Below, in pieces: positions 30,713-47,698 of a stretch of DNA of 64,000 bases. Every line of letters starts with the position of its first letter. The first letter of the stretch is position 1. The stretch is from Siccirubricoccus deserti (GTDB lineage: Bacteria; Pseudomonadota; Alphaproteobacteria; Acetobacterales; Acetobacteraceae), in NCBI RefSeq assembly GCF_014283215.1, contig NZ_JACOMF010000010.1, positions 1 to 64,000 on the forward strand. The letters are read 5' to 3'. The notes under the pieces are model-generated. The model made no database searches. It worked only from the letters and a program-made list of their open reading frames with translations, and was not told the DNA's origin. The position numbers and the translations under genes are program-made.

Positions 30713-31701
30713 GCCGCGAGGGCCCCTTCCTTCATGGCGTAGTGGCAGGCCGCGACATGGCCCGGCGCCTTCTCCTCCAGCGCCGGTGCCACCTGGATGC
30801 AGAGCTCGGTGCTGTGCGGGCAGCGGCTGGCGAAGACGCAGCCGGGGATCTTCTGCTTCAGGCTCGGCACCAGGCCGGGGATCTCGGCCAGCCGTGTCTC
30901 CTCCCCATGCAGCGAGGAGCCGAGCTTCGGCATCGAGCCCAGCAGCCCCTGGGTGTAGGGGTGGCGCGGGGTGCGGAACAGCGGCCCGACCGCCGCCTCC
31001 TCCACCTTGCGCCCGGCGTACATCACGACCACCCGTTCCGCCACCTCGGCCACCACGCCGAGGTCGTGGGTGATCAGCACGATGGCGGCGCCGACGCGGT
31101 GCTTCAGGTCGCGCATCAGCTCCAGGATCTGCGCCTGGATGGTGACGTCGAGGGCGGTCGTCGGCTCATCGGCGATCAGCAGCTTCGGGTTGCAGGCGAG
31201 CGCGATGGCGATCATCACCCGCTGCCGCATGCCGCCCGAAAGCTGGTGCGGATATTCCCGCACCCGCCGCGCCGGCTCTGGGATGCCGACCAGGGTCAGC
31301 ATCTCGACCGCCTTCTCCTCGGCCTCCTTGGCGTTCAGCCCCTGGTGCAGCCTCAGCGTCTCGCCGATTTGCCGCCCCACGGTCAGCACCGGGTTCAGCG
31401 AGGTCATCGGCTCCTGGAAGATCATGCTGATCTCGTTGCCGCGGATGCCGCGCATCTCGCGGTCCGAGAGCTCGAGCAGGTTGCGCCCCTCGAAGCGGAT
31501 GGCGCCGGCGATCTTGCCCGGCGGCTCGGGGATGAGCCGCAGGATGGACATGGCGGTGACGGATTTGCCGCAGCCGCTCTCGCCCACGATGGCCAGCGTC
31601 TCCCCGGCATTGACCGAGAAGGACACGCCGTCCACCGCGCGGTTGACCCCGTCCGGCGTGCGGAAATGGGTCTGCAGGTTGTCGACCTCGAGAAGCGCCA
31701 T
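30709..31701 (-). CDS. dppD: Oligopeptide/dipeptide ABC transporter ATP-binding protein, DppD/OppD type
   Basis: A 330-residue ATPase. Walker A is [12 protein letters not shown], the Q-loop is in [19 protein letters not shown], the signature is [15 protein letters not shown] and Walker B is [12 protein letters not shown]. The C-terminal [16 protein letters not shown] is the oligopeptide-family cysteine motif. It follows dppC after four bases and overlaps dppF. Substrate range is set by the binding proteins upstream. Confidence 0.93.
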
Positions 31702-31705
31702 GCGG

Positions 31706-32635
31706 TTAAAGCCTCTTCGCCATGCGGGGATCGAGCGCGTCGCGCAGCCCGTCGCCCAGCAGGTTCACCGCCAGCACGGTGATGGACAGGAAGATCGCCG
31801 GGAAGAAGACGATGTAGGGCTTCACCTGCCACAGCGCCCTGCCCTCCGCCATGATGTTCCCCCAGGAGGGGATGATCGGCGGCGTGCCGGCGCCGATGAA
31901 GGAGAGGATGGCCTCGACGATCATCGCGCTGGCGCAGATGTAGGTGGCCTGCACGGTGATCGGCGCCAGGGTGTTGGGCAGGATGTGCCGCCAGATGATC
32001 ACCGGCGTGCGGGTGCCGGCTGCGACCGCCGCATCGACATAGGGTTGTTCCCTGAGCGACAGCACCACGCCGCGCACCAGCCGGGAGACGCGGGGGATCT
32101 CCGCGATGGTGATGGCGATGATGACGTTCTGCACGCTGCCGCGGGTCAGCGCCATCAGCGCGATCGCCAGCAGGATCGGCGGGATGGACATCATCCCGTC
32201 CATGATCCGCATGATGATGCTGTCCGCCCAGCGGACGAAGCCGGAGATGAGGCCGATGGTCAACCCGATGACCGAGGAGAGCAACGCCACGGAGAAGCCG
32301 ACCAGCAGCGACACCCGGGTGCCGTAGAGCACGCGGGAGTAGACGTCCCGCCCCAGCATGTCGGTGCCGAACCAGTACATTGCGGAAGGCTCGCGGGTCC
32401 GCCGCGCCGGCGCCAGCGCGGTCGGGTCGGTGGTGAAGAGCAGCGGTGCGAAGATCGCGATCGCCAGCATCACCAGCAGCAGTCCGGCGCCGGCAACAAT
32501 GGTCGGGTTGCGCCGGAGGAAACCGAGGAAGCCGCGGCGCGGCTTCACCGGCGGCAGCACATCCGGCATCGGGGGGGCGGCGGCGACGTCCCGCGACGTC
32601 AGCGCAGCCGGGGCAACTACGGTCGCTGAAGCCAT
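31706..32635 (-). CDS. dppC: ABC transporter permease, DppC type
   Basis: A 309-residue inner-membrane permease. A Pro/Ala-rich cytosolic start is followed by helix 1 ([23 protein letters not shown]) and the usual six-helix core. The EAA-loop region reads [27 protein letters not shown]. The motif [25 protein letters not shown] is the DppC/OppC N-terminal hallmark. Its ATG overlaps the dppB stop (TGATG). The much longer upstream extension in this frame is a shadow of dppB. Confidence 0.92.
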
Positions 32636-33576
32636 CAGTAGCGGATCCTCGGGTCGAACAGGGTGTACAGCAGGTCGATCGCCAGGTTGACCAGGACGTA
32701 GACGAAGCTGAACAGCAGGATGACGCCCTGGATCACCGGGTAGTCCCGCCGCAGGATCGCATCCACCGTCAGCCGGCCCAGGCCGGGAATGGCGAAGACG
32801 CTTTCGGTGACGACCGCGCCGCCGATCAGCAGCGCCACGCCGATGCCGATGACGGTGACGATCGGCACCGCGGCGTTCTTCAGCGCGTGCAGGAACAGGA
32901 TGCTGCGCTGGCCGGCGCCCTTGGCCCGGGCGGTGCGGATGTAGTCCTGCTGCAGCACTTCCAGCATCGTTGCCCGGGTGATCCGGGCAATCAGCGCGAT
33001 GTAGACGCCGCCCAGCGCGATGGCCGGCAGGATGAGGTTCTCCAGCCAGGGGAAGAAGCCGTTGGAGAAGGCAGTGTAGCCCTGCACCGGCAGCCAGTCG
33101 AGTTCCAGCGCGAAGACATAGGCCAGCACATAGCCGACGACGAAGACCGGCACAGAGAAGCCGAGCACCGCGAAGCCCATTACCGCGCGGTCGATCCAGG
33201 TCCCCTGCTTCCAGGCCGCCACCACGCCCATCGGCACGGCGATGCTGACCGCAAGGCAGAGGGTCAGGACCATCAGCGACAGGGTCGGTTCGATCCGCTG
33301 CTGGATCATCGTCGTCACCGGCAGGTTGGTGAAAATCGAGACGCCCATGTCGCCTTGCAGGATGCGGAACAGCCATTCGCCGAAGCGCACCAGGAAGGGC
33401 CGGTCGAGGCCGAGGGATTCGCGGATGCGCTCCACGTCCTGCGGCGTCGCCTGGTCGCCGGCGATCACCGCCGCCGGATCACCGGGCGCTATGTAGAGCA
33501 GCGAGAAGACAAAGAGCGCGACAATGGCCATGACCGGAATGGTGGCCAGGACGCGACGGACAATATAGGCGAACAT
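32635..33576 (-). CDS. dppB: ABC transporter permease, DppB type
   Basis: A 313-residue permease with six helices. It starts MFAYIVRRVLATIPVMAIVALFVFSLLYIAPGDPA, the classic DppB N-terminus. DYIRTARAKGAGQRSILFLHALKNA is the EAA loop contacting the ATPases. It begins 95 bases after the nearest binding-protein gene, so a read-through operon is likely. Confidence 0.93.
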   Translation of the reverse strand: MFAYIVRRVLATIPVMAIVALFVFSLLYIAPGDPAAVIAGDQATPQDVERIRESLGLDRPFLVRFGEWLFRILQGDMGVSIFTNLPVTTMIQQRIEPTLSLMVLTLCLAVSIAVPMGVVAAWKQGTWIDRAVMGFAVLGFSVPVFVVGYVLAYVFALELDWLPVQGYTAFSNGFFPWLENLILPAIALGGVYIALIARITRATMLEVLQQDYIRTARAKGAGQRSILFLHALKNAAVPIVTVIGIGVALLIGGAVVTESVFAIPGLGRLTVDAILRRDYPVIQGVILLFSFVYVLVNLAIDLLYTLFDPRIRY

Positions 33577-33671: not shown

Positions 33672-35273
33672 TCATGCTTTCGCGACGCCCCAGAAGAACG
33701 GCAGCGGGCCCTTCTGAATGCCGGTAACGTTGCGCCGCCAAGCCTGGTAGCCGAGGAAGAAGCCGGTCGGCGCATAGACCACGTTCTCCAGCGCCAGGCG
33801 ATTGACCTTGCCGATCGCCGCCTTCTCCGAAGCGAGGTCCGGCGCGGCGAACCATTCGCTGATGGCGGCATCCACCGCCGGGGCGGAGGGCCAGCCGAAC
33901 CATGCATTCTCGCCTGTGGCGCGGATGGCGTTGTAGCTCGCCGGGTTTACGCAATCGGCGCCGGCGTGCCAGGTGTGGAACATCGACCAGCCGCCCTGGC
34001 CGGGCGGGTTCTTCATGGCGCGGCGCTGGCCGACCGTGCCCCAGTCGGTGGCGATGAAATCGACATTCATGCCGAGCCGCTTCAGCAGGTCGGCAGTCAC
34101 GTCGCCGAACGCCTTGGTGATCGACTGGTCCTGCGCCACCACGCAGATCACCGGCTCGCCCTTGTAGCCGCTCTCGGCCAGCAGCTTCTTCGCCGCGTCG
34201 ATGTTGCGCGGCCCCTTCAGGATCTCGCCGCCTTCCTCCGAGTAGAGCGGCGTGCCCGGGGTGAAGTAGCCCGGCAGCGCTTTCCACAGGTCGGTGTCGT
34301 CGCCCACGAGCGCCCGCATGTAGTCTTCCTGGCTCATCGCCATCAGCACCGCGCGACGGACGCCGACATTGTTGAACGGCGGGTGGAGGTGGTTCATCCG
34401 GAAGCTGCCGATGTTGCCGAGCGGATCGGCGATGTCGACAGCGATGTTCCGGTTGCGCTTCAGAGTCGGCACCAGATCGGTGATCGGATTCTCCCACCAG
34501 TCGATCTCGCCGTTCTGCAGCGCCGCCGAGGCCGTCGCCGCATCCGGCATGATCAGCCACTCCACCCGGTCCACCATCATGCGCTTGGCGCCCGCCAGCC
34601 AGGTGCCGGCATCGCTGCGCGGCACGTAGCCATCGAATTTCTGGAACACCGCCTTGGCGCCCGGCACCCATTCGTTGCGCACGAAGCGCATCGGGCCGCT
34701 GCCGACATACTCGCTGATCTGGGTGAAGCTGTCGGTCCTGGCGATCCGCTCCGGCATGATAAAGCAGCAGGGCGTGCCGACCTTGGCGAGGGCGAAGCGC
34801 AGCTTCGGATAGGGGCTCTTCAGCACCCAGCGCACGGTGCGGTCATCCGCCGCCACCAGCTCGTTCTGGATGGCCTTCAGCATCTGGCCCATCGGGTCGC
34901 GCGGCATCCAGCGGGTGATGCTGGCGACCACGTCCTTCGCCAGCACCTTCTCGCCGTCATGGAAGCGCAACCCGTCGCGCAGCTTGATCGTCCAGGTGAG
35001 GCCGTCGGAGGAAACGGTGTCGCCCTCGACCATCTGCGGTTGCGGCTCGAGCTTCTCGTCGACGCCGTAGAGCGTGTCCCACACCATCGCCGAGGCGTTG
35101 CGGACAACGTACTGGGTGCCCCAGATGGGGTCGAAATTCGCCAGATTGGCCTGGGGAACGAAACGCAGGGTGCGTGCCGCCGTGCCCTGGGACAGTGCCG
35201 GCGCCGGCATGCCCGCCGTGGCGCCGAGTGCGCCGGCCGCGGCCGCCGCCTTCAGGAGATTCCTGCGATCCAT
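33672..35273 (-). CDS. ABC solute-binding protein, family 5 (array member 1)
   Basis: A 533-residue periplasmic receptor, the one next to dppB and so the probable original partner of this transporter. The signal has a twin-arginine look (MDRRNLLKAAAAAG, cleavage after about ALSQ). Typical family-5 regions follow: LRFVPQANLANFDPIW, LRFHDGEKVLAKD, CCFIMPERIARTD and NHLHPPFNN. DWWENPITDL and VDFIATDWGTVGQRR carry probable pocket residues. It lacks a lipobox. The ligand could be a peptide or another small polar compound. Confidence 0.9.
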   Translation of the reverse strand: MDRRNLLKAAAAAGALGATAGMPAPALSQGTAARTLRFVPQANLANFDPIWGTQYVVRNASAMVWDTLYGVDEKLEPQPQMVEGDTVSSDGLTWTIKLRDGLRFHDGEKVLAKDVVASITRWMPRDPMGQMLKAIQNELVAADDRTVRWVLKSPYPKLRFALAKVGTPCCFIMPERIARTDSFTQISEYVGSGPMRFVRNEWVPGAKAVFQKFDGYVPRSDAGTWLAGAKRMMVDRVEWLIMPDAATASAALQNGEIDWWENPITDLVPTLKRNRNIAVDIADPLGNIGSFRMNHLHPPFNNVGVRRAVLMAMSQEDYMRALVGDDTDLWKALPGYFTPGTPLYSEEGGEILKGPRNIDAAKKLLAESGYKGEPVICVVAQDQSITKAFGDVTADLLKRLGMNVDFIATDWGTVGQRRAMKNPPGQGGWSMFHTWHAGADCVNPASYNAIRATGENAWFGWPSAPAVDAAISEWFAAPDLASEKAAIGKVNRLALENVVYAPTGFFLGYQAWRRNVTGIQKGPLPFFWGVAKA

Positions 35274-35452
35274 CGTTGTTTTGCCCCCAGCTCCCAGCCG
35301 GGCAGCGTTCCGCGCGCCCGGTTAGCCATCAACCTGCCTCAGCCTTGAGCATTGCGCCAGCGTTGACCATTCCACATCATGGCTGGCACCGCCAAGGCGT
35401 CGGCCTCGCCGCCGGGCTTGCACGCAGCGTGCCAGCCCGCGGCGCGCCGGCC

Positions 35453-37027
35453 TCAGCCCCGCCGCACGCCCCAGAACAACGGCGGCCCGCCGGTGACCAG
35501 CCCGCTGAGGCTGCGCCGGTAGGCCATTGGCGGCCGGAGCAGGCCTAGCGGCACGAAGGGCACCTCCTCCCAGACCAGCCGCTGCATCTCCTCGGCAATG
35601 CGCTTGGCCGCGGGCAGGTCGGCGGCCTCGAACCAGGCCTCGCGCAGCGCCTCCCGGCGCGGGCTGGTGGCCCAGCCGATCCAACCCGCATTGCCGCGCA
35701 GCGGCTGGTGGCTGCCGGGCACCGAGACCTCGAACCCCTCCCAGGTGGTGCAGAAGATGTTCCAGCCGCCCTGCTCCGGCGGGTCCTTCTTCGCGCGGCG
35801 CTGCACCAGCGTGCCCCAGTCCATCACCTGCAGGTCGACATTCATGCCGATCCGCCGCAGCGTGTCGGCAGCGACCGCGGCCAGCGCGCCGAGGGTGGGG
35901 AAATCGCCCGGCGAGAGGATCACCACCTTCCGGTTGCGGTAGCCGGCAGCGGCCAGCGCCCGCTTCGCCGCCTCCGGGTCGCGCGGTCCGGTCAGCACCT
36001 CGAGCCCCGCATCATTCGCCAGCGGGGTGCCCGGGGTGAAGGCGCCGGCCGGCACCTGCCACTGCGCCTGGTCCTCGCCGAGCGCCGCCGCCATGAAGGC
36101 GCGCTGCTCGATCGCCGGGAGGATGGCGCGGCGGACGGCCGGGTTGTCGAACGGCGGGTGCAGGTGGTTGAACCGCAACATGCCGAGCGCACCGGCGCCG
36201 TTCACCACCTCGATGGCGATGTCGCGGCTGCCTCGCAGCACTGGCAGCAGATCCGCCAGCGGGGTCTCCCACCAGTCGATCTCATTCGCCTGCAGCGCCG
36301 CGGCGGCGGCGGCCGGGTCGGGCAGGATGCGCCATTCGACGCGGTCGAAATGCACCGGCTTGCCGCCGGCCAGGAAATCCGCCGGCTCGTCGCGCGGCAC
36401 GTAATGCGTGTTACGCTCATAGACCACGAAGCTGCCCGGCACCCACTCCGCCTGACGGAAGCGGAAGGGCCCGCTGCCGATGGCCTCGGTGACCGGGGTG
36501 ACGGGGTCGGTCCTCGCCAGCCGCTCCGGCATGATGGCGCAGATGTTGGCGGCGGGCTTGCCCAGCGCCCAGGCCAGGCCGGGCCAGGGCTTCTTCAGGA
36601 GGATCTCGATGCGGTCGTCGGCCGGCGCCCGCATTTCCTGCAGCAGCGCGTCCAGCCGTTGGCCAAGCATGTCGCGCTTCGACCAGCGGGCGATGGAGGC
36701 GATGCAGTCCCGCGCCCGCACCGGCTCGCCGTCGTGGAAGCGCAGTTCCGGCCGCAGGGTGATGCTATGGGCCAGGCCATCGGCCGAGACCTCGTGCTGC
36801 GCCGCCATCTGCGGCTTCGGCCGGAAATCCTTTCCCAACCCGAACAGCGTGTCATAGACCATCAGCCCGTGGTTGCGGGTCACGGTGGTGGTGGCCGCGA
36901 CCGGGTCGATGGTGCCGAGGCTGCCCGCCGGCACGAAGCGCAGGGTGCGGGCGCTGCTCTGCGCGGCCGCAAGGCGCGGTGCCGCAAGCGCCAGGGCGCT
37001 GCCCTGCAACAGGCTCCGACGGTGCAT
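35453..37027 (-). CDS. ABC solute-binding protein, family 5 (array member 2)
   Basis: A 524-residue receptor. The ATG at 37027 (MHRRSLLQGSALALAAPRLAAAQ) with a GGAGGGG ribosome site is chosen; the frame is open upstream but only with Arg/Pro-rich nonsense. It keeps the array motifs (LRFHDGEPVRARD, NHLHPPFDN, VMDWGTLVQRRAKK) but its N-terminus reads RFVPAGSLGTIDPV instead of VPQANL, and it is the most divergent in the middle. It lies 179 bases upstream of member 1, the widest gap in the array. Confidence 0.9.
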   Translation of the reverse strand: MHRRSLLQGSALALAAPRLAAAQSSARTLRFVPAGSLGTIDPVAATTTVTRNHGLMVYDTLFGLGKDFRPKPQMAAQHEVSADGLAHSITLRPELRFHDGEPVRARDCIASIARWSKRDMLGQRLDALLQEMRAPADDRIEILLKKPWPGLAWALGKPAANICAIMPERLARTDPVTPVTEAIGSGPFRFRQAEWVPGSFVVYERNTHYVPRDEPADFLAGGKPVHFDRVEWRILPDPAAAAAALQANEIDWWETPLADLLPVLRGSRDIAIEVVNGAGALGMLRFNHLHPPFDNPAVRRAILPAIEQRAFMAAALGEDQAQWQVPAGAFTPGTPLANDAGLEVLTGPRDPEAAKRALAAAGYRNRKVVILSPGDFPTLGALAAVAADTLRRIGMNVDLQVMDWGTLVQRRAKKDPPEQGGWNIFCTTWEGFEVSVPGSHQPLRGNAGWIGWATSPRREALREAWFEAADLPAAKRIAEEMQRLVWEEVPFVPLGLLRPPMAYRRSLSGLVTGGPPLFWGVRRG

Positions 37028-37157
37028 CAGGCTTTCCCCTCCGGGCGACCCGCAGATCCCGGGCGCGGGGCGTGCTTGCCCCAGCCCGGGGCGCGGCGCA
37101 ACCGGATGCGGCCGCGACGGTGACCTTGGCTCCACGAGCGCCTCCGACGGCCTCGGA

Positions 37158-38732
37158 TCAGCCCTTGGCGAGGTTCCAGAATACCGTCGCCGGTGCGCGG
37201 AACACCCCGGTGACATTGCGCCGCCAGGCCGAGGGCTGCCAGTAGAAGCCGAGCGGGATGTAGGGCAGCACCTCCATGGCGCGGCGGTTCAGCGCATCGC
37301 CGACCTGCTTCTGCCCGGCGGCGTCGGGCGCCTCGATCCAGGCCTGGCGCAGCCGCTCGATCTCGGCATCCTCCGGCCAGCCGAACCAGGCGTTGCTGCC
37401 GTTGGCGCGGAGGAACAGGTGAAACACCGGCAGTGCCAGCGACTGGCCGGAGGAGGTGGTGTGGATGATGCTCCAGCCGCCTCGTTCCACCGGCTCCTTG
37501 CTGACCCGCCGCTGCACCAGCGTGCCCCAGTCGGCGGCGACCAGTTCCAGGTTCATCCCGAGCCGGGTCAGCAGGTCGGCGGTGACCATCGACAGTGCGT
37601 TGATCTGCGGATAGTCGCCGGGTGCCACCAGCACCACCTTCTCGCCGGCATAGCCGACGTCCTTCAGCACGGCGCGGGCGCGGTCGATGTTCCGTACCTT
37701 GAGGATGTCGCTGCCGGCTTCGGTCGCCAGCGCGGTGCCGCAGGTGAAGACGCCCTCGCAGGCCTCCCAGCCGTCGCGCTCATTGCCGGCCACGGCGCGC
37801 ATGTAGTCGCGCTGATCCACCGCCATGGCGACGGCACGGCGGATGCCGGGGTTGTTGAACGGCGGGTGCAGGTGGTTGAAGCGGCAGATGCCATAGGTGC
37901 CGTCCAGCAACCGTTGCTGCACCACCAGCTCGCGGTTCCGTCGCAGCAGCGGCAGCAGATCGTGCAGCGGATATTCCCAGTAATCCTGCTCGCCGGTGAC
38001 CATGGCATTCGCGGCGGTGGCGGAATCCGGGATGATGGTCCACTCGACCCGGTCGAGACGCGGCGCGCGGCCACCGGCCAGACCGTCCACCGGCTCCTGC
38101 CGCGGCACGTAGCCATCGAATTTGGCCCAGAGGGCGCGCTGACCGGGATTCCATTCGTCCGCAAGGAAGCGGAACGGCCCGCTGCCCACCGCCTCCCGCA
38201 CCTGCTGGAAGGCGTCGGTGCTGGCGATCCGCTCCGGCATGATGAAGCAGGGGAACTGGGTCTGGCCGAGCGCCATGGTCAACAGCGGCACCGGCTTGTG
38301 CAGCCGGAAGCGGAAGCGGCGGTCATCCAGCGCCTCGACCTCGGCGACACTGGGCTGCAGCACCTGCATGAAGGGGTCGCGCCGCGCCCATCGCTTGATG
38401 CTGGCGACGCAATCCTTCGCCAGTACCTTCTCCCCGTCATGAAAGCGCAAGCCCTGGCGCAGGGTGAAATTCCAAGTGAGGCCATCTGCCTCGGTGGTCC
38501 AGCCCTCCACCATCTGCGGCCTGATCTCGCCCTTAGCGTCCTGGGCGCAGAGCTGGTCGTAGATCAGGAAGGCGTGGTTGCGGGTGACCACCGCGGTGGT
38601 CCAGACCGGATCAAGGCTGGTGAGGTTGGCCTGCGGCACCACGCGCAGGGTGCGCGCGGCACTGCCCTGGGCAAAGGCCGGGGCCGGCAGGGCGGTGGCG
38701 GCGGCGAGGCCGAACAGGGTGCGGCGCTGCAT
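37158..38732 (-). CDS. ABC solute-binding protein, family 5 (array member 3)
   Basis: A 524-residue receptor starting MQRRTLFGLAAATALPAPAFAQ (RR motif, Ala-x-Ala type cleavage). The mature part begins LRVVPQANLTSLDPVWTTAVVTRNHAFLIYDQL. RFHDGEKVLAKD and KFDGYVPR resemble member 1 more than the others. NHLHPPFNN is present. The ATG at 38732 is preferred because the signal peptide begins there; an upstream ATG adds 16 residues without signal character. Confidence 0.9.
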   Translation of the reverse strand: MQRRTLFGLAAATALPAPAFAQGSAARTLRVVPQANLTSLDPVWTTAVVTRNHAFLIYDQLCAQDAKGEIRPQMVEGWTTEADGLTWNFTLRQGLRFHDGEKVLAKDCVASIKRWARRDPFMQVLQPSVAEVEALDDRRFRFRLHKPVPLLTMALGQTQFPCFIMPERIASTDAFQQVREAVGSGPFRFLADEWNPGQRALWAKFDGYVPRQEPVDGLAGGRAPRLDRVEWTIIPDSATAANAMVTGEQDYWEYPLHDLLPLLRRNRELVVQQRLLDGTYGICRFNHLHPPFNNPGIRRAVAMAVDQRDYMRAVAGNERDGWEACEGVFTCGTALATEAGSDILKVRNIDRARAVLKDVGYAGEKVVLVAPGDYPQINALSMVTADLLTRLGMNLELVAADWGTLVQRRVSKEPVERGGWSIIHTTSSGQSLALPVFHLFLRANGSNAWFGWPEDAEIERLRQAWIEAPDAAGQKQVGDALNRRAMEVLPYIPLGFYWQPSAWRRNVTGVFRAPATVFWNLAKG

Positions 38733-38816
38733 GGTCTCAGAGCCTCCGTATGGCCGGGCGAAGGATGAAGCCGGCGGCATGGCGGGGCCAGGCGCGGCAC
38801 CGCCATGCCGCCCCGC

Positions 38817-40397
38817 TCATGCCCGGCGGATGTTCCAGAAGATCGCCAACCCACGCACCCGGTCCACCAGGTCGCGGCGCACCGCGGTCTGCGAGCGGTA
38901 GGCACCGACCGGGATGTAGGGCAGTTCCTGCATCGCCAGCACCTGCATCTCCCGCGCCAGCGCCTTCCGCTGATCGAGGGTCGGCGCCTCGAACCAGGCG
39001 TCACGCAGGGCTTCGAGGCGCGGGATGTCCGGCCAGCCGAACCAGGCGCCGGCGCCATTGGCGCGCAATGTCGGGTTGGTCGCCGGGGTCAGGAAATCCA
39101 TCGAGCTGAAGGCGTACATGGAAACACTCCAGCCGCCGCGCTCCAACGGCTCCTTGCTGGTGCGCCGCTGCACCACCGTGCCCCAGTCGGTCAGCGCCGC
39201 ATCGAGGTTGACGCCGAGCCGGCGGAACAGATCGAGCGCCATCTGGGTCAGCGCCGAGGGCACCAATATGTCGGTCGGCCCCAGCAGCCGGATCTGCTGG
39301 TTGGTGTACCCCGCCTCCTTCAGCAGGGCGCGGGCACGGTCGAGGCTGCGTGGGCCGCGCAGCGGCTCCAGCCCGACATCGCTCGCCATCGGCCCGCCGG
39401 GGGTGAAGAAGCCGGCATCGGTCTGGTAGAGCGCAGGGTCGGTGCCGACCGCCGCCTGCATGAAGCTCTCCTGATCGATCGCCGGCAGCAGGGCGCGGCG
39501 CATCGCCGCCTTGTCGAAGGGCGGCTGCAGGTGGTTGAAGCGCATCAGCGCCATCATCGGCAGCGGGTCGATCGGCTCGATGGCGATGCCGCGGTTGCGG
39601 CGGAGAAGCTGCTGGATCTCCGGCGGCGGCTGCTCGTACCAGTCGATCTCGCCGGCCTGCATCGCCGCCGAAGCGGTGGCGGCATCCGGGATGATCTTCC
39701 ACTCCACCCGGTCGAAATGCGCCAGCTTCGGCCCTGCGGTGTAGCCGCTGGCGGCCACCGGGGTCGGGCTGTAGACCTCGTTGCGGGCGAAGGCGGCGCC
39801 GCTGCCGGAGACGAACTCATCGGCCAGGAAGCGATAGGGGCCGCTGCCCATCACCTCACGGAGCTGGGTGAAGGGATCGGTCTTCGCCAGCCGCTCCGGC
39901 ATGATGAAGCAGGGCGGCGCGACCGGCGAGGCCAGCGCCTCGATCAGCAGCGGAAAGGCACGCTTCAGGCGGAATTGCAACCGCCGGTCGTCCGGCGCCG
40001 AAATCTCCTCGACCAGCGGCGCCAGCTTCTGGCCCATGGCGTGGCGGCGCATCCAGCGGGTGACGCTGGCCGCCGCATCGCGCGCCAGCACGGGCGCGCC
40101 ATCATGGAAGCGCAAGCCCTCGCGCAGGGTGATGGTAACGCGGCGGCCGTCCTCCTCCTCGACATGGCCCGCCGCCATCTGCGGCCGCGGGCGGAACTCC
40201 GCGTCGCTGCCGTAGAGCGTGTCATAGACCATGTAGCCCATGTTCCGGGTGACGTTGGACGTCGTCCAGATCGGGTCGAGTGCCGAGAGATCCGCCTGCG
40301 GGACGAAGCGCAGCACCCGGCCGCGCTGCGCCAGAGCCAGGCGCACCAGCGCCGCGGCAGCCGCCGCGCCGCCCAGCAATCCACGACGTCGCATCAT
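38817..40397 (-). CDS. ABC solute-binding protein, family 5 (array member 4)
   Basis: A 526-residue receptor with signal MMRRRGLLGGAAAAAALVRLALAQ. It is a close sister of member 5: both have EQPPPEIQQLLRRNR, RRVTITLREGL and PMASDVGLEPL-type segments. Here the conserved NHLHPPF reads NHLQPPFDK, the only His-to-Gln change in the array. Its start overlaps the stop of member 5 by four bases, the tightest join in the cluster, as expected after a recent tandem duplication. Confidence 0.9.
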   Translation of the reverse strand: MMRRRGLLGGAAAAAALVRLALAQRGRVLRFVPQADLSALDPIWTTSNVTRNMGYMVYDTLYGSDAEFRPRPQMAAGHVEEEDGRRVTITLREGLRFHDGAPVLARDAAASVTRWMRRHAMGQKLAPLVEEISAPDDRRLQFRLKRAFPLLIEALASPVAPPCFIMPERLAKTDPFTQLREVMGSGPYRFLADEFVSGSGAAFARNEVYSPTPVAASGYTAGPKLAHFDRVEWKIIPDAATASAAMQAGEIDWYEQPPPEIQQLLRRNRGIAIEPIDPLPMMALMRFNHLQPPFDKAAMRRALLPAIDQESFMQAAVGTDPALYQTDAGFFTPGGPMASDVGLEPLRGPRSLDRARALLKEAGYTNQQIRLLGPTDILVPSALTQMALDLFRRLGVNLDAALTDWGTVVQRRTSKEPLERGGWSVSMYAFSSMDFLTPATNPTLRANGAGAWFGWPDIPRLEALRDAWFEAPTLDQRKALAREMQVLAMQELPYIPVGAYRSQTAVRRDLVDRVRGLAIFWNIRRA

Positions 40398-41974
40398 GCC
40401 CTCCGCAGCCCCCAATAGATGGCGAAGCCGGGCACCCGGCCCGTGAGGTTCCGCCGCAGCGCGGTCATCGCCATGTAGGCGCCGACCGGGATGTAGGGCA
40501 GTTCCTCCATCGCCACCGTCTGGATGTCGCGGCAGATGCGCTGCTGCGCCGCGACATCGGGGGCATCGAACCAGGCATCGCGCAGTTCCTCGATCCGCGG
40601 GATGCTCGGCCAACCTGGCCAAGCCGCAGTGCCGTTGCCGCGCAACGGCGTATGCCCGGCAGGGTCGAGGAATTCGAAAGAGGAGAAGGAGGTGTAGAGC
40701 ACACTCCAGCCGCCCTTCTCCAGCGGCTCGCGGCTGGTGCGGCGCTGCACCACGGTACCCCAGTCGCTCAGCGCGACATCGACGTTCATCCCGAGCCGGC
40801 GGAACATGTCGGCGCCCACCTGGGTCATCGCCGAGGGAGCAAGGATGTCGGTCGGGCCGATCAGCCGCATCGGCTGGTCGGTGTAGCCGGCCTCCTTCAG
40901 CAGCGCGCGGGCGCGGTCGACGCTGCGCGGGCTGGTCAGCGGCCCGAGGCCGACATCGCTCGCCATCGGCGTGCCCGGCGTGAAGAAGCCGACGCCGGTG
41001 CGGATCATCGCCGGATCAGTCCCGACGACCGCCGCCATGTAGTCGGACTGGTCGACCGCCGGCAGGATCGCCTGGCGCAGCCGCTTGTCGCTGAAGGGCG
41101 GGTGCAGGTGGTTGAAGCGGAGGATGCCGGTCAGCGGCAGAGGATCGATCGGCTCGATGACAACCTGCCGGTTGCGGCGGAGAAGCTGCTGGATCTCCGG
41201 CGGCGGCTGCTCGAACCAGTCGATCTCGCCCTGCTGCAGGGCGGCCGCCGAGGTCGCGGCATCGGTGATGATGCGCCATTCCACCCGGTCGAAATGCACC
41301 ACCTTCGGCCCGGCGGTCAGGCTCGGCTCGCCCTGCGGCACCGGCACGTAGTCCGGGTTGCGCTCATAGACGATGAGGCTGCCGGAGTTGAACTCGTCCT
41401 GCTTGAAGCGGAACGGGCCGCTGCCGGTGGGGTCGCGGATCTGCTGGAAGGGATCGGTCTTCGCCACCCGCTCCGGCATGATGAAGCAGACCGGGTTGGT
41501 CGGCGAGGCGAGCCCATGCACCAGCATCGGGAAGGGGCGCTTCAGGCGGAACACCAGGCGCCGGTCGTCCGGCGCCTCGATCGCGTCGAGCACGGCTTCG
41601 AGCTTCTGGCCGGTCGGGTTGCGCTTCATCCAACGCTGGATGCTGGCGGCGCAATCCGCCGCCCGCACCGGCGCGCCGTCATGGAATTTCAGCCCCTCGC
41701 GCAAGGTGATGGTGACGCGCCGGCCGTCTTCCTCCGCCAGATGCCCCGCCGCCATCTGTGGCTGCGGGCGGAACTGCGCATCCAGGCCGAACAGCGTGTC
41801 ATAGACCATGAACCCATGGTTCCGCGTGATGTTCGCGGTGGTCCAGATCGGGTCGATGCTGGTCAGGTTCGCCTGCGGCACCATGCGCAGCACGCGCGCC
41901 TGCGCTGGTTGCCCGATGGCAATGCCTGGCAGCGCGGCGACCGTGGCGCCGGCGAGGAGGGTGCGTCTTTGCAT
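40394..41974 (-). CDS. ABC solute-binding protein, family 5 (array member 5)
   Basis: A 526-residue receptor with signal MQRRTLLAGATVAALPGIAIGQ. It begins LRMVPQANLTSIDPIWTTANITRNHGFMVYDTLFGLDAQF. NHLHPPFSD, DWFEQPPPEIQQLLRRNR and DWGTVVQRRTSREP pair it with member 4. Only seven bases separate it from the stop of member 6, so 6, 5 and 4 must be cotranscribed. Confidence 0.9.
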   Translation of the reverse strand: MQRRTLLAGATVAALPGIAIGQPAQARVLRMVPQANLTSIDPIWTTANITRNHGFMVYDTLFGLDAQFRPQPQMAAGHLAEEDGRRVTITLREGLKFHDGAPVRAADCAASIQRWMKRNPTGQKLEAVLDAIEAPDDRRLVFRLKRPFPMLVHGLASPTNPVCFIMPERVAKTDPFQQIRDPTGSGPFRFKQDEFNSGSLIVYERNPDYVPVPQGEPSLTAGPKVVHFDRVEWRIITDAATSAAALQQGEIDWFEQPPPEIQQLLRRNRQVVIEPIDPLPLTGILRFNHLHPPFSDKRLRQAILPAVDQSDYMAAVVGTDPAMIRTGVGFFTPGTPMASDVGLGPLTSPRSVDRARALLKEAGYTDQPMRLIGPTDILAPSAMTQVGADMFRRLGMNVDVALSDWGTVVQRRTSREPLEKGGWSVLYTSFSSFEFLDPAGHTPLRGNGTAAWPGWPSIPRIEELRDAWFDAPDVAAQQRICRDIQTVAMEELPYIPVGAYMAMTALRRNLTGRVPGFAIYWGLRRA

Positions 41975-41981
41975 GGTGGCA

Positions 41982-43574
41982 TCACACCTTTTTCAGGGAC
42001 CAGAACAATGGCATCCCTTTTGGAACATCCGCCAGACTGCGGCGATAGGCCGTCGATTGGAAATACTGGCCGAGCGGCAGGGTCGGCGCCTCCTCGAAGG
42101 CAAGCTGCTGCATCTCGCGCGCGATCGCCTGTTGCCTGGGCAGATCGGCAGCGTCGAACCAACCCTGCCGCAACGTCTCCAGCCGCGGCGAGGTCGCCCA
42201 GCCCCACCAGCCGTCGCCGCCATTGCCGCGGATCGGCTGGTTGACGCCAGGGTTGATGACGTCGAGCCCGGTCCAGAAGTTGAAGAAGATGCTCCAGCCG
42301 CCTTTCTCCGGCGGCTCCCGGCTGGCGCGGCGGGCAACGACGCTGCCCCAGTCGGTCGCCACGAAATCGACGTTCATCCCGGCCCGCCGCAGCATGTCGT
42401 TGCCGACCTGGCCGAGCGCGTTCAAGGTCGGGAAATCGGTCGCCGCCAGCAGCACCACCTTCTCGCCCTTGTAGCCTGCCGCCTCGATCTCCCGCTTCAC
42501 CTTGTCGAAGTCGCGCGGACCCTTCAGCACCTCGAGCCCGACGTCGCTGGCCATCGGCGTCTCCGGCGGAAAGAAGCCGACATTCTCGCGCCACAGGCTA
42601 CGGTCGGTGCCGGTGACGGCGGTCATGTAGTCGGCTTGGCTGACCGCCCCCATCAGCGCCCGGCGGATGCGCGGATTGTCGAAGGGCGGGTGCAGGTGGT
42701 TGAACCGGCCCCAGCCGACCAGCCCGGTCGGGTTCGGCAGGTCGATGGCGATGTTGCGATTGCGCCGCAACAGCGGCAGCAGATCGGAGGTCGGCACCTC
42801 CCACCAATCCGTCTCGCCATTCTGCAGCGCCGCCGCGGCGGTGGAGGAATCCGGCGTGACGATCCATTCGACCCGGTCGAGGTTCACCCGCTTCGGTCCG
42901 GCGGTCCAGCTTGCCGTGCCCTCCTCGCGCGGCAGATAGCCGGCAAATTTCTCGTAGACGAAGCGGCTGCCCTGCACCCGCTCATCCGCCTTGAAGCGGA
43001 ACGGGCCGCTGCCGACCATCTCCGGCACCTGTCGGGCCGGGTCGGTCTGCGCCAGCCGTTCCGGCATGATGAAGCAGCAGGGGGTGACCAGGCTGCCGAG
43101 CGCCTCGGCCAGCAGCGGGAACGGCCGCTTCAGCCGAAAGACCAGGCTACGATCGTCCGCCGCCGACATCTCGTCGAGCCGGGCGAGCAGTTCCTGGCCC
43201 AGCGGGTGCCGCCCAGCCCAGCGGCGGATCGAGGCGATGCAATCCTTCGCCCGCACCGGCTCGCCATCATGGAATTGCAGGCCGGGGCGCAGAGTGATGG
43301 TCCAACGCCGGCCATCTTCCTCGATGCGATGCCCCCCGGCCATCTGCGGCTGGATGCGGAAATCGGCATCCATGCCGTAGAGCGTGTCGAACACCATGAA
43401 GCCGTGGTGCCGGCTGACATAGGCGGTGGTGACGATCGGGTCGAGGATGCCGAGGTCGGACTGCGGAATGAACCGCAGGACCCGCGCCGCCGCCGGCTGG
43501 GCCAGCGCGGCGCGCGGCAAGGCCAGGACGGTGCCGGCAGCGGCAGCGCCGCGCAGCAGGTCTCGACGGTCCAT
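41982..43574 (-). CDS. ABC solute-binding protein, family 5 (array member 6)
   Basis: A 530-residue receptor with signal MDRRDLLRGAAAAGTVLALPRAALAQ. Its mature start is LRFIPQSDLGILDPIVTTAYVSRHHGFM. GFFPPETPMASDVGLEVL, AGYKGEKVVLL and RASREPPEKGGWS are shared almost word for word with member 7. QSDL replaces the QANL of members 1, 3 and 5 in the N-terminal strand that lines the pocket entrance. Confidence 0.9.
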   Translation of the reverse strand: MDRRDLLRGAAAAGTVLALPRAALAQPAAARVLRFIPQSDLGILDPIVTTAYVSRHHGFMVFDTLYGMDADFRIQPQMAGGHRIEEDGRRWTITLRPGLQFHDGEPVRAKDCIASIRRWAGRHPLGQELLARLDEMSAADDRSLVFRLKRPFPLLAEALGSLVTPCCFIMPERLAQTDPARQVPEMVGSGPFRFKADERVQGSRFVYEKFAGYLPREEGTASWTAGPKRVNLDRVEWIVTPDSSTAAAALQNGETDWWEVPTSDLLPLLRRNRNIAIDLPNPTGLVGWGRFNHLHPPFDNPRIRRALMGAVSQADYMTAVTGTDRSLWRENVGFFPPETPMASDVGLEVLKGPRDFDKVKREIEAAGYKGEKVVLLAATDFPTLNALGQVGNDMLRRAGMNVDFVATDWGSVVARRASREPPEKGGWSIFFNFWTGLDVINPGVNQPIRGNGGDGWWGWATSPRLETLRQGWFDAADLPRQQAIAREMQQLAFEEAPTLPLGQYFQSTAYRRSLADVPKGMPLFWSLKKV

Positions 43575-43679
43575 GATGCTCTCCCCGAGGCCACGCTGCG
43601 GTGACCATTGCGGGGAGTGAAGCCCAGCCCGGACGCCGCCGCAAGCAGCCGCGCCCGGTGCGCGCCGGTCAGCTCCCGG

Positions 43680-45269
43680 TCATGTCTTGGTCACGTTCCA
43701 GAACAGCGGCAGGCCGCCGAGCACGTTGCTGACATTGCGGCGATAGGCCCAGGGCTGGAAATACTGGCCAACCGGCAGGTAGGGCACCTCGCGGAAGGCC
43801 TCGGCCTGGATCTCGGCGGCAAGCTTCTTCTGCGCCTCGACGTCGGGCGCCTCGAGCCAGGCGTTCCGTAATTCCTCAAGCTTCGGCATGGTCGGCCAGC
43901 CGAACCAGCTGTTCAGCCCGTTGCCGCGCAGGCCGAGATGCGTCGCCGGACTGAAGAAGTCGAGCCCGGTGAAGAAGGTGAAGAAGACGCTCCACCCGCC
44001 CTTCTCCGGCGGCTCGCGGCTGGCCCGGCGCTGCACAACACTGCCCCAGTCGGTCGAGACATAGTCGACGTTCATGCCGGCCCGCACCAGCATGTCGCGC
44101 CCGACCTGCGCCATGGCGTTCAGCGAGGGGAAGTCGGAGGCGGCGATGAGCACCACCTTCTCACCCTTGTAGCCGGCGGCGGCCAGGTCGCGCTTGACCT
44201 TGTCGAGGTCGCGCGGACTGGTCAGCGCCTCCAGCCCGACGGTGTTCGCCATCGGCGTGTCCGGCGGGAAGAAGCCGACACCCTCGCGGTAGTTGGACGG
44301 GTCGGTGCCGATGACCGCCGACATGTAGTCCGCCTGCTGCACCGCGCCGAGCAGGGCGCGGCGGATCGCCGGGTTGTTGAAGGGCGGGTGCAGGTGGTTG
44401 AAGCGGCAGAGGCCGAGCAGCCCGGTCGGGTCGTAGATCTCGACATTCAGGTTCCGGTTGCGGCGGAGCAGCGGCAGCAGATCGGCGGTCGGCTGCTCCC
44501 ACCAGTCCATCTCGCCGGATTGCAGCGCGCCGGCGGCGGTGGAGGCGTCGGGGATCACCTGCCATTCCACCCGGTCGACATGCACCTGCTTCGGCCCGGC
44601 GGTCCAGGACGGGGTGCCGGATTCGCGCGGGCGATAGTCCGGGTTGCGCTCATAGACCAGACGGCTGCCGGCGATCCGCTCATCCGCCTTGAAGCGGAAG
44701 GGGCCGGAGCCGACGATCTCGCGGATCGCCGTATTGGCGTCGGTCCGGGCGATCCGCTCCGGCATGATGAAGGGCACCGGCGAACTCGGCTTGGCCAGCG
44801 CGTCCAGCAACAGGGCGAAGGGGCGCTTCAGCCGGAAGGTGAAGCTGCGATCGTCATTCGCCACGATCTCGTCGGTCGCCGCCATCAGCGCCTGGCCAAG
44901 CGCGTCGCGCTGCGCCCAGCGCTTGATCGAGGCGACGCAATCCTTCGCCCGCACCGGCTCGCCATCGGTGAAGCGGAGGCCGGGGCGGAGGGTGATGGTG
45001 ACCCGCCTTCCGCCATCCTCCACCACATGGCCCTCGGCCATCTGCGGTTGCGGCTTGAAGTCGGCATCCAGGCCATAAAGCGTGTCGTACAGCAGGAAGG
45101 CGTGGTGCCGCGTGACATAGGCGGTGGTGATGATTGGATCGATCACCGCGACATCCGACTGCGGGATGAACTTCAGCACCCGGCTGCCCGGCGACTGAGC
45201 GAGGCCCGGCAACGCCAGCGGGGTTGCGGCAACCCCGGCGGCGCCGAGGAGAAGGCTGCGACGTTGCAT
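43680..45269 (-). CDS. ABC solute-binding protein, family 5 (array member 7)
   Basis: A 529-residue receptor, first in the direction of transcription. The ATG at 45269 gives the signal MQRRSLLLGAAGVAATPLALPGLAQ; the frame runs about 150 codons further upstream without similarity. LKFIPQSDVAVIDPIITTAYVTRHHAFLLYDTLYGLDADF and NHLHPPFNN are typical. It is the sister of member 6, separated by 105 bases. A promoter for the whole transporter cluster should lie upstream, in 45270-45615. Confidence 0.9.
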   Translation of the reverse strand: MQRRSLLLGAAGVAATPLALPGLAQSPGSRVLKFIPQSDVAVIDPIITTAYVTRHHAFLLYDTLYGLDADFKPQPQMAEGHVVEDGGRRVTITLRPGLRFTDGEPVRAKDCVASIKRWAQRDALGQALMAATDEIVANDDRSFTFRLKRPFALLLDALAKPSSPVPFIMPERIARTDANTAIREIVGSGPFRFKADERIAGSRLVYERNPDYRPRESGTPSWTAGPKQVHVDRVEWQVIPDASTAAGALQSGEMDWWEQPTADLLPLLRRNRNLNVEIYDPTGLLGLCRFNHLHPPFNNPAIRRALLGAVQQADYMSAVIGTDPSNYREGVGFFPPDTPMANTVGLEALTSPRDLDKVKRDLAAAGYKGEKVVLIAASDFPSLNAMAQVGRDMLVRAGMNVDYVSTDWGSVVQRRASREPPEKGGWSVFFTFFTGLDFFSPATHLGLRGNGLNSWFGWPTMPKLEELRNAWLEAPDVEAQKKLAAEIQAEAFREVPYLPVGQYFQPWAYRRNVSNVLGGLPLFWNVTKT

Positions 45270-45615
45270 GGGTAACCGTTCCCGTGTTGGTGAAGCCGGC
45301 GCAGGGGAACCCCATCCACCCGCGAAACGCAAGAGGTGACAGCCCGATCGCTGCGGCGGCACTGCCTTACGGCGTGCTTGCCGCAACACGGTCACAACTC
45401 CGGCGCATGATGACCATGAAGAGGAGCCCTTGCCGCATGCCACAACCGATCCGTTCCGGAAGCTCTGGGCGCATTTCCGATGCCGCGGCGCCATGCGCCG
45501 AGGAACGTGACCGCGCCGCTGCCGCGGAGCCATGCCGGATGCGGTGTCGTCACCACGCCGTGGTTTGTTTGCGCCGCAGCGTCCGCGTAGACAATGGCCT
45601 ACCAGGATGCCCTGC
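45270..45615. other. Divergent promoter region between the binding-protein array and the polysaccharide genes
   Basis: About 345 bases between two divergent clusters. It must hold the promoters of both, but no clear -35/-10 pair or operator was recognised on either strand. A 131-codon frame on the plus strand (45224-45619) has an Arg/Cys-rich composition and overlaps the start of array member 7, so it is not accepted as a gene. Confidence 0.5.
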
Positions 45616-46077
45616 ATGACCGTCGTTTCCTCCCCCGCCGCCCAGCCTGAGCGGCCGCTTGCGCGGCTCGCCGGCGAATTTTGCCGCTTCGGTGCGGTCG
45701 GTGTCGTTGGCTTCATGGTGGATGCCGCGGTGCTGACTGCCGGCCTTGCCCTGGGCCTCGGCCCCTGGCTTGGCCGGATCTTATCCTATGTCACCGCAGC
45801 GAGCACGACCTTCGCGCTGAACCGCGCCTGGACCTATCGCGCGGCCCCGCGCGATGCGGTGGCGCGGCGCTGGGCGATGTTCCTCGTGGTGAATCTCGTT
45901 GGATTCCTCTGCAACTATGGCACCTACGCCGCACTGATGACGACCGTGCCGCTGGTCGCAGCGAACCCGGTGCTCGGGGTCGCCGCAGGTTCGCTGGCCG
46001 GCCTGGCAGGCAATTTCCTGCTCAGCCGGCGCTACGTCTTCACCCCGGGCGGCCAGCGCCGCCCGCTCGCCATCTGA
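45616..46077 (+). CDS. GtrA-family membrane protein
   Basis: A 153-residue inner-membrane protein with four helices, of the GtrA/DPMS2 family that assists flipping or use of polyprenyl-phosphate sugars. FCRFGAVGVVGFMVDAAVL (helix 1), SYVTAASTTFALNRAWTY and GNFLLSRRYVF are family landmarks. The ATG at 45616 is preferred over 45607 because AGGA sits eight bases before it. It opens a surface-polysaccharide gene group. Confidence 0.85.
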   Translation: MTVVSSPAAQPERPLARLAGEFCRFGAVGVVGFMVDAAVLTAGLALGLGPWLGRILSYVTAASTTFALNRAWTYRAAPRDAVARRWAMFLVVNLVGFLCNYGTYAALMTTVPLVAANPVLGVAAGSLAGLAGNFLLSRRYVFTPGGQRRPLAI

Positions 46078-46177
46078 TGATCATGCCGACGGGTGCCATG
46101 TCCGACGTCCTGCGCCCTAGCCTCACCCTGATCCCCAGGACGCCAACCCGGCGGCGTCCCTCCGTGGTGCACTTCGC

Positions 46178-47698
46178 ATGGATGGTCTGATGCCCAGTGA
46201 CCCCGGTAGCAAGGACGCGCAGCTGGTTCCCGCCGTCGGCGATGCCGGCTGGGCCGGCTTTGCCAGTGGCGGGCGGACGGCTGCGAAACGCCGCGGGCCA
46301 GGCTGGCGCTTCGCCGGCCCCCTGCCGCCGGCCGTGGTCGCCAGCCTGGTCGCCGCGCTCGATATGGCGGCAACGGCGCTGGGCGGGCTGGTCCTGCATA
46401 CGGTGCCGCTGCGGCGCGGACCGCCCTCGCCTGAGCTGATCGGCTTCGTTGCCCTGCTGGTGCCCTGCGTCGGCGCCGCCATCGGCGCCTATGGCCCTGC
46501 CCGGCTGCTCGGCGGCCGCCGGGCCGGAATGGCGGCGCTGACCGCGCTGGTAGTGGGCGTCGGCGGGATGATCCTGGCGGCCGCCGCGCTCGGCGCCGGC
46601 AGCAATTTCCGCCCGGTGATGGCAGCGCTGTGGGTCGGCTTGGCGGCACCGCCGCTGCTGGCCGGACGGGCCGCCGCCGGCTGGGGGCTGCGCGCGGTCG
46701 CCGGCCGCGCCCAGCAACGCGCCGTGCTGGTGGGCAGCGGACCGCAGGCTGCCCGCTTCGCCGCGGCGGTCCGGCAGCAGCCGGATGCCGCCTTACGGTT
46801 GATCGGCCTTGCCGATGATCGCGCACCCCACATGGCCGCGCCGGCCAGTGACTGGGGCGGCCTGCCCCATCTCGGCGGGCTGGATACCCTCTGCAGCCTG
46901 ATCCGCCGCGGCGTGGTGGACCAGGTGATCCTCGCCTTGCCCTGGACCGACGAGGACCGGGTTGCCGCAGTCATGCGGGTGCTCGGCGACTATCCGGTCG
47001 ATGTCCGGCTGGCGCCCGACCTGCTGGCGTATCGTTGCGGCGGCGAGGCGGAGCGGCTACGCCTGCTGCGGCTGGCCGACCGGCCGATCAGCGGCTGGGC
47101 GGCGGTGGTGAAGGCGGTCGAGGACTATACGCTGGCGATCGGCGCCATCGCCGTCGCGGCGCTGCCGATGGCGCTGATCGCGCTGGCCATCCGGCTCGAC
47201 AGCCCGGGGCCGGTGCTGTTCCGCCAGCGCCGCACCGGCTTCAACAACCGCGACTTCTACGTGCTGAAATTCCGCACAATGTATGTCGAGGCGACCGATC
47301 ACGAAGCGGTCCGCCAGGTGGTGAGTGGCGATCCCCGGGTGACCCGGATCGGCGCCATCCTGCGGCGCACCTCGCTGGATGAGTTGCCGCAGGTGTTCAA
47401 CGTGCTGAAGGGCGAGATGTCCTTCATCGGTCCGCGGCCGCACGCCCCGGGCACTCGCGCCGGCGGCCGGCCGTTCGAGCAGGTGGTCGCCCGCTACGCC
47501 GCCCGGCACAAGGTGAAGCCGGGGCTGACCGGCCTCGCCCAGGTTCGCGGCTGGCGCGGCCCGACCGAGACCGAGGAGAAACTAATTCGTCGAGTCGAAA
47601 GCGATCTGGAGTATATCGAGACCTGGTCGCCCTGGCTCGATTTCACGATCCTCGTGCGGACCCTGCTGGCGGTGGCGCGGATGCGCAACGCCTGCTGA
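46178..47698 (+). CDS. Polyprenyl glycosylphosphotransferase (WcaJ/ExoY type)
   Basis: A 506-residue membrane enzyme that starts exopolysaccharide repeat-unit synthesis by moving a sugar phosphate onto undecaprenyl phosphate. The N-terminal half has about four helices and a CoA-binding-like domain (AVLVGSGPQAARFAAAVRQ). After a helix at about 316-335 comes the catalytic domain: SPGPVLFRQRRTGFNNRDFYVLKFRTMY, RRTSLDELPQVFNVLKGEMSFIGPRPH and KPGLTGLAQVRGWRG. The sugar is unknown. The partner GT genes follow directly. Confidence 0.9.
   Translation: MDGLMPSDPGSKDAQLVPAVGDAGWAGFASGGRTAAKRRGPGWRFAGPLPPAVVASLVAALDMAATALGGLVLHTVPLRRGPPSPELIGFVALLVPCVGAAIGAYGPARLLGGRRAGMAALTALVVGVGGMILAAAALGAGSNFRPVMAALWVGLAAPPLLAGRAAAGWGLRAVAGRAQQRAVLVGSGPQAARFAAAVRQQPDAALRLIGLADDRAPHMAAPASDWGGLPHLGGLDTLCSLIRRGVVDQVILALPWTDEDRVAAVMRVLGDYPVDVRLAPDLLAYRCGGEAERLRLLRLADRPISGWAAVVKAVEDYTLAIGAIAVAALPMALIALAIRLDSPGPVLFRQRRTGFNNRDFYVLKFRTMYVEATDHEAVRQVVSGDPRVTRIGAILRRTSLDELPQVFNVLKGEMSFIGPRPHAPGTRAGGRPFEQVVARYAARHKVKPGLTGLAQVRGWRGPTETEEKLIRRVESDLEYIETWSPWLDFTILVRTLLAVARMRNAC

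Follow-up and report, generated by a model that had tools for sequence, protein, structure and literature searches.

The locus examined here raises the questions of whether one membrane transporter can be served by many receptors, how such an arrangement arose, and what it transports. In the stretch of Siccirubricoccus deserti DNA that was analysed (contig NZ_JACOMF010000010.1, positions 1 to 64,000, that is 64,000 nucleotides, hereafter the window), seven consecutive minus-strand genes for family-5 solute-binding proteins, numbered S7 to S1 toward the permease, run into a single dppBCDF-like set of genes for an ATP-binding cassette (ABC) transporter; one binding protein per Dpp transporter is still the rule elsewhere, according to the available portion of a 2025 paper on Pseudomonas aeruginosa (PMC12728205). 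The explanation favoured here, with moderate confidence and on comparative sequence evidence, is that several receptors that differ in specificity all supply a single permease, in an old multi-receptor importer with a sigma-54 core and an associated hydroxylase.

Organization of the array and its transporter

The genes of the array and of the transporter are as follows (classes A to F are described in the next section).

43680-45269, minus strand: S7, family-5 binding protein of 529 residues, class C, first gene of the array (PF00496, class models)
41982-43574, minus strand: S6, 530 residues, class C, 65% paralogue of S7 (PF00496)
40394-41974, minus strand: S5, 526 residues, class B (PF00496)
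38817-40397, minus strand: S4, 526 residues (525 from the second ATG), class B, 65% paralogue of S5 (PF00496)
37158-38732, minus strand: S3, 524 residues, class D, Ser replacing Asp/Glu in the DxxxP motif (PF00496)
35453-37027, minus strand: S2, 524 residues, class E (PF00496)
33672-35273, minus strand: S1, 533 residues, class A, adjoining the permease; the class that stands alone with dppB in Rhizobiales (PF00496)
32635-33576, minus strand: dppB-like permease, scoop motif AGDQA (PF00528, PF19300)
31706-32635, minus strand: dppC-like permease, ATG at 32635 (PF00528, PF12911)
30709-31701, minus strand: dppD-like ATPase (PF00005, PF08352)
29675-30712, minus strand: dppF-like ATPase (NCBI family model match)

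All seven binding proteins matched PF00496 (SBP_bac_5) in Pfam, each over a single long stretch and with E values of 4e-55 to 3e-64. Their positions and lengths (524-533 residues) agree with those given in an earlier sequence-only reading of this DNA, as does the spacing: S5 and S4 overlap by 4 bases, and the gaps are of 7, 84, 95 (S1 to dppB), 105, 130 and 179 bases. Of three motifs which that reading had regarded as common to the array, NHL(H/Q)PPF and DWG(T/S) are present in all seven proteins, but FHDG is present in six and reads FTDG in S7. The proposed sister pairs, S4/S5 and S6/S7, are borne out by identities of 65%, compared with 45-56% for every other pair. R3 and R4 near the N-terminus are kept in S1-S7 and also across an alignment of 35 rows; export of the binding proteins by the twin-arginine (Tat) pathway is likely, and is put no higher than that for all seven because S1 alone among them passed the NCBI Tat-signal model.

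The dppB, dppC, dppD and dppF genes lie directly downstream of the array, with junctions that are few-base gaps or overlaps, and the components by which a peptide/opine/nickel ABC importer is recognized (a PF00496 protein, two BPD_transp_1 permeases and two ABC ATPases) are all present. Of 150 genomes sampled from the same family, 89 contain the subfamily according to a profile of the seven (E up to 1e-100), and six further members (C210, C35, C46, C265, C266 and C217, corresponding to L131-L136; 496-778 bits) are encoded in the S. deserti genome itself. Five of these six have no homologue of dppB, C, D or F in the surrounding 10-12 kb, and the sole one near the sixth is a distant ATPase (31%). 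The genome encodes one close DppB, all others being at most 44% identical over their full length or 49% over one partial stretch, and the six extra members may use the permease of the window. The arrangement in the earlier proposal, one permease fed by many binding proteins, accounts for the data most economically, given the single close DppB and the location of the nearest kin of the seven. For the same reasons, the opposite expectation, that the closest homologues would lie beside a different permease elsewhere, did not hold: these kin sit in orthologous arrays, beside an orthologous permease.

Conservation, gene order and age

Relatives were collected with a dppB query, of which the best 80 of at least 584 were fetched (a few on contigs too short for binding proteins to be counted), and twenty additional regions from 19 genomes were read, 18 of which are other loci of the same kind. 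Among the best 80, a single subfamily binding protein precedes dppB in the Rhizobiales loci (Bradyrhizobium, Bosea, Methylobacterium and others). Most Acetobacteraceae loci have several, whereas L076, an Acetobacteraceae metagenome-assembled genome, has one. Arrays of two to nine binding proteins occur across many genera: L114 and L115 have six, L111 and the window seven, L121 eight, and L112, from the same genus as the window, nine; these sizes are lower bounds because many loci end at a contig end or at the 10-kb flank, and because eight truncated or merged binding-protein reads were excluded before trees and classes were made. Elsewhere in the taxonomic class, four (L141, 5588-17455), two (L142), two (L143) and two (L144) strong tandem subfamily genes are found near a related dppB.

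Clustering of 197 binding proteins by identity (cuts of 0.38 and 0.42) gave classes A to F, and the 0.38 set was used to build class hidden Markov models; labels are weak in L095, L097, L100 and L108. The corresponding 197-row tree excludes near-duplicate loci and most Rhizobiales. All trees (197-row, 79-row, a later one of binding proteins and one of DppB) were quick and made without bootstrap; in the 79-row tree support was computed by the Shimodaira-Hasegawa-like approximate likelihood-ratio test (SH-aLRT): 100 for each of classes A, B, D and E, 91 for C with L102_p2 inside, and 89 for C together with F. Scoring with the class models showed that 54 of the 55 distinct multi-gene loci share the order F-C-B-D-E-A toward dppB (56 were scored and 55 were in order, one contig having been counted twice), the exception being the weakly classed L097. 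In the window the order is C-C-B-B-D-E-A. Class A is present in nearly all loci; E, D or C is missing from many.

The best matches in other genomes share 81-87% identity with S1-S4 and 81-85% with S5-S7 (the latter by BLAST), far above the 45-65% between paralogues within the array, and in the 79-row tree the S4/S5 and S6/S7 splits are older than the separation of several genera. Ratios of nonsynonymous to synonymous substitution (dN/dS) for the seven, against same-genus orthologues, are 0.20-0.38, and all seven are under purifying selection. Class-specific conserved residues exist as well (for example, columns 85, 225, 283 and 441 of S1). Judged by these comparisons, the array is an old, inherited, collinear Acetobacteraceae locus with losses and local doublings, not the product of a recent burst of duplication, because cross-genome identity far exceeds paralogue identity, the sister splits predate genera, and the order is kept. 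Since the same kind of array recurs in the same order in many relatives, it is probable that distinct receptors, in a stable set, all use one membrane pump.

The sequence-only reading had held that the array grew by repeated duplication and had called for a phylogeny with homologues. Tandem duplication did build the array, but recent growth is not supported: in the tree, the classes and both sister pairs are older than the split of several genera. An assembly artefact, which that reading had named as a possible source of the array, is unlikely, as six-gene collinear arrays lie within contigs of 5.4 and 5.5 Mb in two other genomes (L114 and L115) and arrays recur in many independent assemblies.

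A single-gene ancestral state was considered, and on this the trees disagree. In the binding-protein trees, Rhizobiales class A nests within Acetobacteraceae class A, and holding the Acetobacteraceae core together gave a p value of 0.03 in the approximately unbiased (AU) test, for a group defined after the tree had been seen; in the DppB tree, the Acetobacteraceae core stays on one side of a branch with support of 39. Some array members are short or interrupted, namely pieces in L116, L117 and L118 that are too short to class and a gene with an inner TAG (G024 C12, 234832-236409); these may represent ongoing loss or assembly error.

A conserved sigma-54 element and probable transcription units

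Two conserved sequences precede S1, the second lying between the first and the gene.

35419-35434, minus strand: sigma-54 (-24/-12) element TGGCACG-N5-TGCA, starting 161 bases upstream of S1 (conservation)
35329-35361, minus strand: second conserved block, an inverted repeat of the TGCC-N9-GGCA type (here TGCT-N9-GGCA), a possible operator

The sigma-54 consensus is TGGCAC-N5-TTGC, with GG and GC at fixed spacing; the elements found here often have G, A or C in place of the first T of TTGC. In the 300 bases upstream, the pattern TGGCA(C/T)-N6-TGC(A/T) is present for 45 of 54 class A genes of arrays (L031 being excluded from this count because it is the same contig as L111) and for 24 of 39 single class A genes. 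Because the pattern was picked after the alignment had been viewed, array genes of other classes (4/165) and random windows (55/5820) serve as the control. A stricter TGGCACG form within 400 bases is found before 35 of 55 array class A genes and 4 of 39 single ones. The class A gene of L096, which was scored as a miss, has TGGCATGGCGCTTGC followed by G, and that of L085 (Bradyrhizobium sp. DOA9) has TGGCATACCATTTGCT 88 bases upstream. RpoN sites of the same form are listed for strain DOA9 in the available part of a published account, which does not name the L085 class A gene among them (PMC13207237). The S. deserti genome encodes rpoN once, and its activator-domain matches comprise four strong and four weak ones.

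Median intergenic distances are long before class A (E to A 163.5, D to A 167, C to A 183 and B to A 221 bases) and tight at B to D (14.5), D to E (13) and B to B (0.5). Long gaps likewise follow C and F (C to B 92, F to C 98, C to C 102.5, F to B 106.5), and the window departs from these medians with a C to B gap of 7. Given the sigma-54 element before class A, the class A gene with dppBCDF, and probably the cox genes described below, is likely to form a transcription unit of its own. The one simple operon suggested by the spacing in the sequence-only reading sits poorly with this element and the conserved long gap before S1; read-through from S7 to coxM would be possible. In consensus scans, sigma-70-type sites numbered 0 against 0.8 expected, and terminator-like sites 12 against 6.6 expected (standard deviation 2.9), with none in the gaps between array genes. 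No conserved promoter was found upstream of the first array gene among 14 loci, and RNAalifold found no RNA structure in the conserved block upstream of S1 in 29 sequences picked by regular expression out of 55.

Association with a molybdenum hydroxylase

Four genes follow dppF on the same strand.

29214-29579, minus strand: small hydrophobic protein between dppF and coxS (no Pfam match)
28598-29188, minus strand: coxS-like [2Fe-2S] subunit, start codon uncertain (PF01799, PF00111)
26090-28474, minus strand: coxL-like molybdenum subunit with AYRGAGR (form II) (PF01315, PF02738, PF20256)
25214-26029, minus strand: coxM-like FAD subunit (PF00941)

Genes similar to that of the small hydrophobic protein were found in 14 examined loci (44-72% identity). 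The S-L-M subunit order and the AYRGAGR sequence of CoxL are those of form II CO dehydrogenase-like hydroxylases, which the portion of the literature available describes by the same two features as putative enzymes of uncertain function (PMC7645674). The coxSLM genes adjoin dppF in 36 of 37 multi-gene loci compared with 1 of 34 single-gene loci, among the 71 loci left once those with fewer than 1500 bases after dppF, or with a dppF of less than 60% identity, had been excluded. The lone single-gene locus with coxSLM (L044) is on a contig that ends inside the array. Among the open-access literature matches listed, none describes a joint locus of a form II hydroxylase and a multi-receptor ABC importer. 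The form II hydroxylase gains a concrete lead, in that screening of the seven binding proteins may reveal its substrate.

Substrate predictions

The dipeptide is gripped at both termini by R383 and D436 of E. coli DppA, residues with which E41 and R42 of the DppB scoop pair (PMC12136057). When the seven were aligned to E. coli DppA, GsiB and NikA, none had Arg at the place of R383, which borders an alignment gap, and none had Asp at the place of D436, an acidic residue standing one place further on in six. Ser occupies this acidic place in S3, and also in 19 or more of the 37 class D rows (some rows were misread by the regular expression used). Among entries with a readable motif, the DppB scoop residues E41/R42 are replaced by D/Q, the motif being AGDQA instead of the AGERG of E. 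coli, in all 56 from arrays (two of which are one contig) and in 40 of the 41 from single-gene loci. The seven score no more than 45.3 bits against the NCBIfam DppA equivalog, the cut-off of which is 1005. The Gly-Asp-Asn pocket motif, kept in P. aeruginosa DppA1-5, is absent at the aligned place in all seven; by itself it does not make a peptide binder, because DppA5 has it and bound no di- or tripeptide (PMC12728205, available portion). "Dpp-type", the term used in the sequence-only reading, is therefore unproven as to substrate, the dipeptide-binding residues not being kept at the aligned places.

Structure prediction, suggested earlier as a way of examining the binding pockets, was carried out for S1 and S3 (mean pLDDT 89.4 and 89.5), and yielded the family-5 binding-protein fold for both. 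The best match of both models is 8vdx of Bordetella bronchiseptica, a solved structure compared as a protein alone; it is a member of the subfamily of the seven (41-44% identity), and its Z score with the model of S1 is 43.5. As the next matches, at similar scores, are diverse (AapF and binders of sialic acid, opines, nickel and dipeptides), the fold does not single out a ligand. A literature match to "8VDX" was judged to be chance, being a 2023 muscle paper that predates the 2024 PDB release.

Proposed mechanism and alternative explanations

In the favoured explanation, the locus would be an old ABC importer with many receptors, belonging to the peptide/opine/nickel superfamily, with a core consisting of S1 (class A), the DppBCDF-like permease and ATPases, and coxSLM, all expressed from a putative sigma-54 promoter upstream of S1. 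Transcription of the auxiliary binding-protein genes upstream (C, C, B, B, D, E) would probably begin elsewhere, possibly with read-through into the core. Each binding protein would capture its own ligands and dock on the single permease, and the upstream classes would widen the ligand range of that permease. The imported compounds are probably not plain dipeptides, and some may be substrates of the hydroxylase. A bolder version, which is put forward tentatively and is rather unlikely as a whole, is that the locus is a modular front end: a fixed series of class-specific receptors, inherited in order across Acetobacteraceae with members lost or doubled, would deliver different non-peptide compounds, such as N-heterocyclic or aldehyde-type ones, to a single promiscuous form II hydroxylase by way of one permease under sigma-54 control.

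Several observations weigh against the favoured explanation. The sigma-54 pattern, chosen from an alignment already viewed, has no match before 9 of the 54 class A genes in arrays and 15 of the 39 that stand alone, and within the window alone sigma-54-like patterns are no commoner than chance, so that the evidence for the element is its conservation. The window gaps of 84 bases before S3 (B to D) and 130 before S2 (D to E) are wider than usual. One array, L046 (F-C-B-A), has no adjacent hydroxylase, and the coxSLM contrast is largely a split between lineages, single-gene loci being mostly Rhizobiales and arrays Acetobacteraceae, so that the 71 loci are not independent cases. The Asp/Glu one residue past the D436 place forms a D/E-xxx-P pattern, as in DppA, in six of the seven; if the true alignment were shifted by one, the amino group of a peptide might still be held, and peptide binding is for this reason a possibility.

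This last point also bears on the view that the locus is an ordinary di- and tripeptide importer, in which many binding proteins merely widen the peptide range, as do DppA1-4 of P. aeruginosa, and coxSLM is a bystander. The D/E-xxx-P pattern, the DppBCDF layout, the family-5 fold and the P. aeruginosa precedent (PMC12728205 and PMC4206461, in the parts available) all agree with this view, which is nevertheless considered improbable, given the lack of Arg at the R383 place and of Asp at the aligned D436 place in all seven proteins, the altered scoop in every array entry with a readable motif, the DppA model scores far below cut-off, and the presence of coxSLM beside 36 of 37 array loci. It is a good deal less probable that the upstream genes serve mainly for dosage or are drifting spares, class A alone serving the permease. 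Class A is indeed the most constant member, many loci lack E, D or C, and there are the short or interrupted genes (L116, L117, L118 and, with its inner TAG, G024); against this stand the class order kept across genera, the dN/dS values of the seven, the class-specific residues such as those of S1, and paralogue identities of just 45-65%. The sequence-only reading had also allowed for a sensing system; in such a system, a chemoreceptor or sensor kinase would take its input from some of the upstream proteins. Certain binding proteins are generally known to act in this way, and AapF, among the nearest solved structures, is described with a signalling molecule, but no sensor, chemoreceptor or regulator was found among the neighbouring open reading frames (ORFs) tested against Pfam, a subset of all neighbours in which two ORFs near 21-23 kb were without a match; sensing is accordingly thought very improbable.

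Relation to known systems

The principle of several receptors for one permease is already known, so the earlier suggestion that the system might be undescribed stands only in part: several binding proteins per permease have precedents (PMC4206461, PMC12728205, PMC5736914), and what appears to be new is the fixed order, the sigma-54 unit and the hydroxylase link. No fixed-order array of this size, internal sigma-54 element or hydroxylase link was found among the open-access literature matches listed. The DppA1-A5 and DppBCDF proteins of P. aeruginosa provide the closest likeness, several family-5 binding proteins being encoded beside one dppBCDF (PMC4206461; PMC12728205), and distinct ligand profiles have been measured for them (PMC12728205). 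According to the available parts of these papers, however, four of the genes are at the locus and that for DppA5 is elsewhere, whereas the arrays of the Siccirubricoccus type have up to nine in fixed class order; the P. aeruginosa operon holds a porin, a peptidase and a regulator, whereas the array loci have a sigma-54 element and coxSLM; and the Gly-Asp-Asn motif distinguishes the two sets of proteins as described above. In Borrelia burgdorferi, the tandem binding proteins of the OppA1-A5 set (three of them chromosomal, OppA1-3) share ATPases and are expressed from operonic and individual promoters, but there are two permeases, fewer tandem genes and peptides as substrate, and the available part of the source mentions no hydroxylase (PMC5736914). 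GsiABCD and NikABCDE of E. coli belong to the same superfamily, and among the named NCBIfam models each of the seven matches GsiB or NikA best. The regions read for these two systems contain a single binding protein per system, however, and the proteins of the window score far below the family cut-offs. Because arrays of two to nine receptors in fixed order occur in many genera, natural arrays of different length make the sharing of one permease by paralogous receptors, or their competition for it, testable by comparison.

Neighbouring genes

Three further genes lie at the borders of the region.

24050-25090, minus strand: TauD dioxygenase gene beyond coxM
23091-24053, minus strand: TctC-type receptor gene beyond coxM
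45532-46077, plus strand: gtrA-like gene, divergent, bounding the array (PF04138)

TauD was considered as a member of the operon and was not retained, there being no match in the flanks of relatives, which end 2-3 kb past coxM. Downstream of coxM, L031 and L032 (Belnapia) likewise have a TctC-like ORF (55-56%). Upstream of the array, at 45532-49782 on the plus strand, the divergent GtrA gene is accompanied by a sugar transferase gene and two glycosyltransferase genes, which are partly conserved at this position in relatives.

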